From Caenibius sp. (GTDB taxonomy: Bacteria; Pseudomonadota; Alphaproteobacteria; Sphingomonadales; Sphingomonadaceae): 36,913 bases of DNA. A program made the position numbers and the translations under genes. Position 1 is the first letter of the stretch. Each line of letters starts with the position of its first letter. The notes beneath the pieces were generated by a model. It was not told where the DNA came from. It saw only the letters and a program-made list of their open reading frames with translations, and searched no databases. This document shows, one piece after another, positions 13,345 through 15,987 of the stretch. The stretch lies in the NCBI GenBank assembly GCA_030830695.1, contig JAURML010000027.1, positions 1-36,913 on the forward strand, in the 5' to 3' direction.

Positions 13345-13419
13345 TGGTGGGCGTAGGAAGGATTGAACTTCCGACCCCTGCGATGTCAACACAGTGCTCT
13401 ACCACTGAGCTATACGCCC
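13345..13419 (-). tRNA. tRNA-Val (anticodon GAC)
   Basis: Read on the minus strand, the gene folds into a full cloverleaf. The acceptor stem pairs GGGCGTA with TACGCCC, the D arm is GCTC-AGTGGTA-GAGC, the anticodon arm is CTGTG-TTGACAT-CGCAG with anticodon GAC, the variable loop is GGGTC, and the T arm is GGAAG-TTCAATC-CTTCC. The discriminator is A and CCA is encoded (13347-13345). The body is 72 nt plus CCA. GAC reads GUC/GUU valine codons. Confidence 0.97.
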
Positions 13420-13959: not shown

Positions 13960-14955
13960 GTGACCAGCTTTGACACAGGGCCGCATTTGTTCCAGCTTGG
14001 CCCGGTGCAGGAAGATGTCGCCCCCAATTTCACCGATGGGCTAGTGCCGGGCGGCGATATTCCCGCAAGCGGCGGCTTGCCGGCTTTTTCCTTTCGGCAG
14101 AGTTCAGTCTCGCCGATCCCGGTGCTGGTCGCCGCGCCGCACGGCGGGCGCAGCTATCCACCGGCGTTGAGCGCGCAGATGCGCAACCCCGGACCTTGCG
14201 GCTTGCGACTGGAAGATCGTTATGCCGATTTGCTGGCCTTGCGGCTGGCTCAGGCGACGGGGGCCGAGTTGCTGATCGCCCATGCGCCGCGCGCGATGAT
14301 CGATCTCAACCGTTCGCTTGACGACATGGACTGGACGATGATTGAGCCCCCGGCCCGCGACGCCACCAATGCCCGACCAGAAAGCCGCCGGATGCGCGGC
14401 GGGCTGGGGCTGATTCCGCGCCGCCTGGCGGGGCTGGGCGAAATCTGGAAGGCGCCGCTGCCCGCTGCTGAGCTGGAGTTGCGGATGCAGGACATTCATC
14501 GGCCCTATCATGATCGTTTGCAGGCCATACTCGCCACGCTGCGGCGGCGCTGGGGTGCGGCCTTGCTGATCGATCTGCATTCAATGCCGCCGCTGGCGCC
14601 CGGCCCAGCCAACCGGACGCCTGCGCAAGTCGTGCTGGGCGACCGGTTCGGTGCTTCCTGCGTCGGCACGATCGCGGCGGCTGCGTTTGACGAGTTTGCC
14701 ATGCAGGGCCTTCATGCGGCGCATAACCGGCCCTATGCTGGCGGCTATGTGCTGGAGCGACATTGCAACCCGTCGAACGGTCTGCACGGCTTGCAACTGG
14801 AACTCTGCCGTTCGCTTTATCTCGATGCGCAGCTGGTCGAGCCGGGACACGGCTTCGATGCGACCCTGGCCATGCTGATCCGGCTGGTACGGCGACTTGC
14901 CGACGAAGTGGCTGCAACCGCGCGCGGCGGCGTGAGTGCACTAGCCGCCGAATAA
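13960..14955 (+). CDS. N-formylglutamate amidohydrolase family protein
   Basis: This is a 331-residue protein of the N-formylglutamate amidohydrolase (HutG-like) family, zinc hydrolases that cleave N-formyl-L-glutamate to formate and glutamate at the end of one histidine degradation route. Visible family marks are PVLVAAPHGGRSYP (about 54-67), LRLEDRYADLLA, APRAMIDLNRS, LLIDLHSMPP (zinc-site region), HNRPYAGGYVLERH and GLQLELCRSLYLD. The assigned start is GTG 13960. No good Shine-Dalgarno is visible and the first 45 residues are poorly conserved in my reading, so the true start may be a little downstream. It diverges from cpdR. No other hut genes are near, so a role in histidine catabolism is uncertain and another N-acyl substrate is possible. 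Confidence 0.85.
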   Translation: MTSFDTGPHLFQLGPVQEDVAPNFTDGLVPGGDIPASGGLPAFSFRQSSVSPIPVLVAAPHGGRSYPPALSAQMRNPGPCGLRLEDRYADLLALRLAQATGAELLIAHAPRAMIDLNRSLDDMDWTMIEPPARDATNARPESRRMRGGLGLIPRRLAGLGEIWKAPLPAAELELRMQDIHRPYHDRLQAILATLRRRWGAALLIDLHSMPPLAPGPANRTPAQVVLGDRFGASCVGTIAAAAFDEFAMQGLHAAHNRPYAGGYVLERHCNPSNGLHGLQLELCRSLYLDAQLVEPGHGFDATLAMLIRLVRRLADEVAATARGGVSALAAE

Positions 14956-14980
14956 TCTTTCGCCGGGCATTCCTGCCTAT

Positions 14981-15010
14981 AAAAAACCACCCCGTGCGAG
15001 CACGGGGTGG
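14981..15010 (-). terminator. Strong intrinsic terminator (minus strand)
   Basis: A perfect 10-base stem CCACCCCGTG / CACGGGGTGG with a four-base loop is followed on the minus strand by TTTTTT. It would end the candidate small RNA and also any read-through from sapC. In the plus direction it lacks a T tail. Confidence 0.9.
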
Positions 15011-15078
15011 CCAAGGTTCAGGGAGGAGGTGCAAAAATGCACCTGTCCGAACGAGCCATGAGGGAGAACCCGCCAGAC
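14981..15078 (-). ncRNA. Candidate trans-acting small RNA with anti-Shine-Dalgarno motifs
   Basis: In the gap between the amidohydrolase and sapC, the minus strand holds a complete small transcription unit: a promoter (15085-15113), about 98 nt of RNA, and a strong terminator (14981-15010). The RNA would have a first weak hairpin (GUCUG pairing with CGGAC) whose loop carries UUCUCCCUC. The second is a perfect hairpin, AGGTGCA-N4-TGCACCT (15044-15027). A single-stranded CU-rich linker, CCTCCTCCCTGAACC, leads into the terminator stem. CCUCC stretches that can pair with ribosome-binding sites are typical of several alphaproteobacterial sRNA families. The suhB/MmgR type is a candidate, but I cannot confirm a family. 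No open frame of note lies inside. It could alternatively be the sapC 3' UTR, but the internal promoter argues against that. Confidence 0.6.
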
Positions 15079-15084
15079 TTTCCT

Positions 15085-15123
15085 AAACTAAGCCTTATGC
15101 GACGGGTTTTCAAGGTAAACCCG
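15085..15123 (-). promoter_or_regulatory. Candidate sRNA promoter overlapped by an inverted repeat
   Basis: On the minus strand, -35 TTGAAA (15113-15108), a 17-base spacer and -10 TAGTTT (15090-15085) predict a start near 15079-15077. A perfect inverted repeat CGGGTTT-N7-AAACCCG (15103-15123) covers the -35 element, as a repressor operator would. Regulator unknown. Confidence 0.55.
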
Positions 15124-15213
15124 CCAAGGCGCAGATGATGTGCTAATCGGGCGCGCCGCAGCCCCGTAACTGGCGGTTGCCGCGCTTCCCGAATGTGGCT
15201 GGCCAGAGCTGGT

Positions 15214-15987
15214 TCAGGCGTTGGCAGGAACTTTCGGACCCTTGCCCTGCGCCACCTGCCGCCCGAAAACGACTCGCATCTGGTCCAGCGAGAAGAGGTG
15301 AGCGTAAACCAGCGCCAGAAATCCGTTGCGATTCCAGTTGCGCAGCTTGTCACCCCGGACTTCGCGCAGCTTCTCCTCGTTGATCATCTGGAAGCCACGA
15401 TAGAGGAACGGTTTGTCGGGTTCATTGTCGCGGCGAATGGCAACTTCGCCGTCCATCAGCAGGTCATTTGCCTTCAACTCTTCGATGAAGGCACCCGTGC
15501 GGCGTCCCGCTTCTTCGAAGCGCTGGCAGAATTCGAGCATTTCCTTGGTCCGCTGAGTCGGCTCCTTGTCCTCGAAGATCGCCTCGCCATCCTTGAATTC
15601 GCCGACAAGATCACTGGACGGGTCGAAGCAGAGCGAGAGTTCTTCCTTGTCAGCGCTCAGCCGGGCGAGAAGGAAGGGATAGCGGCGAACATAGGCCGGA
15701 ATATAGGCGCGATCATCCACCTTGCCGTCATCTTCGACAAAGGCGTTCACGCCTTCATTCAGCCCCATCAACGCCAGCGGAACCGGATTGTCACCACCGC
15801 TGAACACAATCGGATAGAAATGCTGGGCCTGCGGAAATTCCTCGACCGTCAGCGGGATCGCATGCTGCCCGACCAGCCAGCTTGCCTTGTTTGCGACACG
15901 CGTACGCCAGGTTGCATGATCGCGGCTGTTAAGCGGGGTCAGGTCATTATAGAACAGTGGGAGGGTGGATTGCGGCGCACTGGCCAT
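15214..15987 (-). CDS. SapC family protein
   Basis: This is a 257-residue protein of the SapC family, named after a gene near the S-layer secretion locus of Campylobacter; its molecular function is not established. Family marks are visible throughout: the N-terminal PLFYNDLTPLNSRDH, then FPIV-like HFYPIVFSGGDNPVPLALMGLNEG, YIPAYVRRYPFLLA, LCFDPSSDLVG, and the C-terminal LYRGFQMINEEKLREV. No signal peptide or membrane helix is obvious, so it looks cytoplasmic. The protein is rich in charged residues. ATG 15987 has GGAGAG upstream. It is preceded by a FAD oxidoreductase on the same strand, 65 bases away. In sphingomonads and Caulobacter, SapC genes often sit near tryptophan halogenase and TonB receptor genes, but none is here. 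Confidence 0.88.
   Translation of the reverse strand: MASAPQSTLPLFYNDLTPLNSRDHATWRTRVANKASWLVGQHAIPLTVEEFPQAQHFYPIVFSGGDNPVPLALMGLNEGVNAFVEDDGKVDDRAYIPAYVRRYPFLLARLSADKEELSLCFDPSSDLVGEFKDGEAIFEDKEPTQRTKEMLEFCQRFEEAGRRTGAFIEELKANDLLMDGEVAIRRDNEPDKPFLYRGFQMINEEKLREVRGDKLRNWNRNGFLALVYAHLFSLDQMRVVFGRQVAQGKGPKVPANA

Follow-up and report, generated by a model that had tools for sequence, protein, structure and literature searches.

The DNA analysed here, referred to as the window, is the whole 36,913-nucleotide stretch of a Caenibius sp. genome (family Sphingomonadaceae; assembly GCA_030830695.1, contig JAURML010000027.1). Within it, the gap between a gene for N-formylglutamate amidohydrolase (FGase) and a gene for a SapC-family protein contains a small RNA gene on the minus strand. 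The first-pass annotation had claimed such a gene in this gap, and all the parts that it described are found on the minus strand where it placed them. The locus is laid out as follows:

13960 to 14955, plus strand: FGase gene, convergent with the RNA (Pfam PF05013, E 7e-59)
14981 to 15078, minus strand: small RNA gene of about 98 nt, its start inferred from the promoter and its end placed at the T run
14981 to 15012, minus strand: intrinsic terminator, stem 15012-14985 followed by six T (helix 3)
15009 to 15027, minus strand: conserved core UCCUCCCUGAACCUUGGCC with the anti-Shine-Dalgarno seed CCUCCCU, near-invariant in 75 aligned sequences
15015 to 15029, minus strand: C-rich linker CCTCCTCCCTGAACC, read from the sequence
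15027 to 15044, minus strand: middle hairpin AGGUGCA-UUUU-UGCACCU, perfect 7 bp (covarying helix 2)
15045 to 15078, minus strand: 5′ hairpin with loop UUCUCCCUC, its C-rich loop motif at about 15068-15060 (covarying helix 1)
15085 to 15090, minus strand: -10 element TAGTTT (family consensus TATNTT), placed by conservation
15108 to 15113, minus strand: -35 element TTGAAA, 17 nt from the -10 element, read from the sequence
15214 to 15987, minus strand: SapC-family protein gene (sapC), upstream of the RNA and co-directional with it (Pfam PF07277, E 1e-68)

The sole tRNA in the window, a tRNA-Val (GAC), lies at 13345-13419 on the minus strand.

The window RNA has a folding energy of -47.6 kcal/mol, compared with a mean of -30.3 for shuffled sequences (z = -5.45), and none of 200 shuffles was as low. 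Covariation across sphingomonad genomes had been proposed as a check, and all three hairpins covary, with compensatory changes in 327 cells where shuffles give 101 ± 8. Two-sided changes occur in 24 of the 28 pairs and 93.5% of cells are paired, while control structures slid by 1-3 columns pair just 36-52% of cells. Every pair of helix 1 (9/9) shows two-sided changes, with 84% of cells paired over the 75 sequences. The same is true of helix 2 (6/6; 93.7%), and the perfect 7-bp hairpin that the earlier reading put at 15027-15044 is also borne out by the sequence. Helix 3 has 13 pairs, nine of them with two-sided changes, and 99.6% of its cells are paired. This terminator stem had been described as 10 bp long and needs correcting: the predicted fold gives it 12 bp and the family consensus 13 bp, the outer two pairs of the latter being G-U. 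Because no T run follows it on the plus strand, the terminator serves the minus strand only.

The core UCCUCCCUGAACCUUGGCC was itself the means by which part of the sequences were collected, through an 18-base exact match inside it, and it is equally near-invariant in the sequences found by overall similarity (blastn). Its seed CCUCCCU is complementary to GGGAGG-type ribosome-binding sites. Upstream of it, the 5′ hairpin is conserved and covarying in the family, with a C-rich loop that reads UCCCUCAU in one group and CCCCCCUUU in another. For the window RNA alone, the conserved fold has an energy of -43.9 kcal/mol versus -47.6 for an alternative in which some of the core is bound by the 3′ arm of the 5′ hairpin, leaving the linker partly paired. 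In the predicted ensemble of this RNA, several core bases have an unpaired probability of about 0.5-0.6. That the 5′ domain could in addition gate the seed, given the pairing of some core bases in the minimum-energy fold, is a speculation from one sequence. The loop of the 5′ hairpin holds an ATG at 15060; the frame that starts there runs for 13 codons to the TGA of CCCTGAACC, so that the locus could encode a small peptide, MARSDRCIFAPPP, with its stop inside the core. An ATG is absent from this place in 67 of 123 loci, and in the other 56 the frames relative to the core are mixed (25, 20 and 11) and the lengths range from 2 to at least 100 codons, which leaves a peptide product extremely improbable.

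The minus-strand -35/-10 pair noted in the first pass is present and conserved, although it fails a simple sigma-70 scan: the stock consensus scan called no promoter here. The promoter is instead accepted because it is conserved in sequence and in position. In 106 of 109 related loci a TTGNNN lies 16 or 17 nt from the -10 element. With a stricter re-scoring, 89 of the 109 have at least nine of twelve matches to TTGAAA/TATATT, compared with 1.35 in mononucleotide shuffles. Between the last base of the -10 element and the core lie 57 to 64 nt in 94 of the 109 loci, against 6.1 in shuffles. The first-pass annotation would have been undone by a lack of conservation of the stem pairs or the promoter in related genomes; both are conserved there.

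This conservation also bears on whether the RNA is anything more than the 3′ end of the sapC transcript (its untranslated region with the terminator, or a fragment derived from that region), lacking a promoter of its own. The arrangement of the genes would allow it: in a neighbour survey, 125 of 149 loci have an upstream, co-directional sapC, and a scan of 14700-15400 for further terminators returned none besides that of the RNA. Such a region would not be expected to have a promoter whose sequence and spacing are conserved, however, and three covarying hairpins are more than a terminator. Moreover, RNA and promoter are kept in loci without an adjacent sapC (e.g., L022, L027, L125 and L129). 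A sapC untranslated region is consequently a quite improbable explanation; sapC is conserved context and separate from the RNA itself.

The gene is widespread in its family. Of 150 genomes from the GTDB family Sphingomonadaceae, 111 have blastn matches. A covariance model (R1), built from an alignment (A1) of 75 non-redundant sequences, finds exactly one copy per genome in 132 of the 150, covering 88 of 96 genera. In the Caenibius genome itself its sole match at E <= 1 is the window RNA (14980-15087, 94.3 bits, E 4.7e-19). The RNA of the FGase/sapC gap is thus a real small RNA gene, and widely conserved. Its surroundings are equally stable: a convergent FGase follows immediately past the terminator in 132 of the 149 loci of the neighbour survey, several of the exceptions being edges of contigs or of the fetched sequence. 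Sphingobium loci L073, L114, L135, L143 and L168, together with L028 and L031, which are similar in sequence, keep sapC and the RNA and have no adjoining FGase.

A few observations stand apart from this distribution. The Caenibius genome carries a second FGase-family gene (G000:C43:534-1130, 123 bits) with no RNA alongside. One assembly labelled Actinobacteria bacterium 21-64-8 (L109, CAJCHR010000165.1) contains a Novosphingobium-like copy of the RNA and its locus, and is probably mis-binned or mislabelled. Two exact pattern matches, in contigs of Agrobacterium rubi and Levilactobacillus, were dismissed as chance, having neither FGase, sapC nor the sRNA structure.

The earlier reading had suggested that the RNA might belong to a family such as suhB/MmgR or be new to sphingomonads, and had proposed a search with Rfam covariance models. 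At gathering scores, Rfam reports the tRNA alone in the window. Below that level, the best match of the RNA is indeed suhB (RF00519), over the full model length, but at 30.1 bits (E 1.8e-4) it stays under the gathering score of 41 bits. None of 47 relatives from the FGase/sapC locus that were tested reaches the RF00519 cut-off either, the best scoring 38.3 bits. Two other families were rejected by score: ar14 (RF02344; 27.4 bits against a cut-off of 58.8) and anti-hemB (RF02837; 18.9 against 49.5), weak matches that share CCUCCUCCC motifs and a three-hairpin or two-hairpin layout.

Model R1, built solely from sphingomonad sequences, gives 22 matches in 21 genomes outside Sphingomonadaceae (E <= 1e-3), and 22 of the 22 coincide with RF00519 matches. 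Of 29 loci holding the best RF00519 match of other alphaproteobacterial families, 25 have a convergent FGase nearby. RNAs of this kind, known as alpha-r8, occur in most species as one copy beside FGase, and the Caulobacter gene sisA is located downstream of FGase (PMC12559287). The window RNA has the same FGase neighbour, identified by Pfam, in the same convergent orientation, as well as the rho-independent terminator at the 3′ end that marks alpha-r8 RNAs. Because FGase synteny and the coinciding R1 and RF00519 matches point the same way, the window RNA is best read as the syntenic orthologue of MmgR and SisA, an orthology that is based on synteny together with profile matches. Both halves of the earlier suggestion therefore hold in part: the RNA is homologous and syntenic to suhB/MmgR/SisA, yet in sphingomonads it has diverged and lies under the Rfam cut-off.

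SisA is the alpha-r8 sRNA of Caulobacter crescentus, with siblings SisB-D and the sponge CrfA. It shares with the window RNA an FGase-linked locus and the order of a hairpin, a C-rich anti-Shine-Dalgarno stretch and an intrinsic terminator (PMC12559287). The SisA 10-mer UUUCCUCCCU is identical in 8 of 10 positions to CCUCCUCCCU of the window RNA, which follows a covarying hairpin and is partly single-stranded in the predicted ensemble. The two RNAs differ in that the SisA 10-mer was probed at G33-C45 whereas the window seed occupies approximately nt 50-59 and is preceded by an extra 5′ hairpin with a CU-rich loop. With MmgR of Sinorhizobium meliloti the window RNA has in common three stem-loops, an anti-Shine-Dalgarno motif and full-length alignment to RF00519, and its middle hairpin lies where MmgR-type RNAs have their GCCC..GGGC hairpin; what sets it apart from MmgR is the sub-threshold score given above.

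A complication is that the Caenibius genome encodes another RF00519 RNA that does exceed the cut-off (G000:C125:14870-14947, 53.5 bits). That copy and the window RNA are two different genes. Copies above the cut-off are found in 121 of 150 family genomes. Those examined (GCCUUUCAGGCAUCCUCUCCCAAAACUUCC...) have a core, AUCCUCUCCCAAAACUUCC, that differs from that of the window RNA, and they are not adjacent to FGase; in several genomes a gene for a CDC48-type AAA+ ATPase adjoins them. The SuhB RNA of Sphingopyxis granuli TFA is 61 nt long and represses thnR with Hfq (PMC6563040). Likened by their length near 60 nt, the above-cut-off sphingomonad RNAs probably correspond to TFA SuhB. The window RNA, a separate gene of about 98 nt, would be of the same class of Hfq-assisted RNAs in the same bacterial family.

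About 100 nt upstream of the SuhB-type RNAs in loci L042-L055, two palindrome-like elements are conserved: TTGCA..TGCAAC, which a simple pattern locates in 12 of 14 loci, and TTTTCGCACTTGCGAAA. Both also precede the C125:14870 RNA of the Caenibius genome. They look like operators of some regulator.

The existence of two such genes raises the alternative that the window RNA belongs to an independent sphingomonad family of anti-Shine-Dalgarno sRNAs that arrived at the MmgR layout by convergence, and that it sits beside FGase by chance, the true alpha-r8 orthologue being the separate SuhB gene. This would account for RF00519 scores under the cut-off throughout the RNAs of the FGase/sapC locus, for the 53.5 bits attained by another RNA of the same genome and for the failure of model R1 to match that second RNA at E <= 1. 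It is harder to reconcile with the convergent, alpha-r8-like FGase linkage, which is a property of the window RNA and absent from the high-scoring copies. In addition, R1 matches only RF00519 sites outside the family, and the homologous string CCUCCCU-N-A-A/G-AC-CUU-GGCC is shared. Convergence is therefore unlikely. Very probably, the window RNA is an independent trans-acting sRNA gene and the FGase-linked, vertically inherited Sphingomonadaceae orthologue of alpha-r8 (MmgR, SisA), diverged below the RF00519 threshold and most likely masking ribosome-binding sites with Hfq. For the sphingomonad RNA that carries the suhB label, the best reading is then a relocated relative.

The orthologues appear to have parted ways in their transcriptional control. 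PhaR/AniA binds the mmgR promoter, as determined by gel shift, and represses it, with the consensus YGCRNYGCR (PMC12542648). Among FGase-linked RNAs of other families (L178-L206), 18 of 25 promoters contain matches to this consensus, compared with 2.1 in dinucleotide shuffles; these are consensus matches only. Such a pattern suggests that carbon-storage control of the FGase-linked alpha-r8 RNA may be ancestral. In contrast to mmgR, promoters of the window type show no enrichment of the operator: in Sphingomonadaceae upstream regions the consensus occurs in 15 of 122 against 8.7 in shuffles (maximum 15), no real excess. The match in the window itself, TGCGGCGCG, is GC-rich and lies upstream of the promoter. 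A phaR-type gene (PF07879) is present in the Caenibius genome, so it is the operator that was lost and not the regulator.

As for mechanism, transcription would proceed from the conserved sigma-70-like promoter, starting at about 15078, and stop at the terminator at 14981. The C-rich anti-Shine-Dalgarno sequence would be exposed in the linker after the second hairpin (CUCCUCCCUGAACC) and again in the loop of the 5′ hairpin (UCUCCCUC), with hairpin and terminator protecting the RNA ends. Together with Hfq, the RNA would most likely base-pair at GGGAGG-type ribosome-binding sites on several mRNAs and, on the model of SisA, block translation initiation. SisA pairs through its anti-Shine-Dalgarno 10-mer to ribosome-binding regions of mRNAs and represses them with Hfq (PMC12559287), and MmgR, which also depends on Hfq, has three stem-loops plus an anti-Shine-Dalgarno motif (PMC7143759). 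Judging from these relatives, a block of translation initiation is the most likely mode of action. The Caenibius genome has an Hfq gene; at G000:C176:8899-9327, two tandem Hfq domains occur in a single open frame of 245 aa.

Candidate targets were sought among GGGAGG-type sites whose complementarity reaches further (TTCAGGGAGG or CAGGGAGG ahead of ATG). The search returned scattered genes and found no recurrent or conserved target. By eye, two matches resemble TonB-dependent receptors, and those in the Caenibius genome include a 74-aa ribosomal protein S18-like frame, a PQQ-dehydrogenase-like and an aminotransferase-like gene and a response regulator. As the matches are no more than general Shine-Dalgarno signals would give, no target is claimed.

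A more tentative proposal, plausible though short of probable, is that the ancestral alpha-r8 regulator became two in Sphingomonadaceae. At the copy beside FGase, the PhaR/AniA operator would have disappeared and a second CU-rich loop for target binding would have been added; on account of these two changes, this copy may now be a housekeeping repressor uncoupled from carbon storage. The translocated SuhB copy, beside the CDC48-type ATPase in several genomes, would have taken on new operators and the role linked to growth rate and carbon.

Sequence comparison indicates that what is known here is the alpha-r8 kind of RNA, with strong homology and synteny, and what is new is its diverged sphingomonad form beside FGase. 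Model R1 and its 132 placements can be used directly for annotation. Sphingomonads are pollutant degraders and bacteria of plants or water. Rfam annotation overlooks this gene in essentially the whole family, and what it calls 'suhB' there is a different RNA; experiments in sphingomonads have therefore probably never examined the syntenic counterpart of MmgR and SisA. That counterpart offers a testable case of an anti-Shine-Dalgarno sRNA that altered the surroundings of its seed, its 5′ domain and its transcriptional control at an unchanged genome position.
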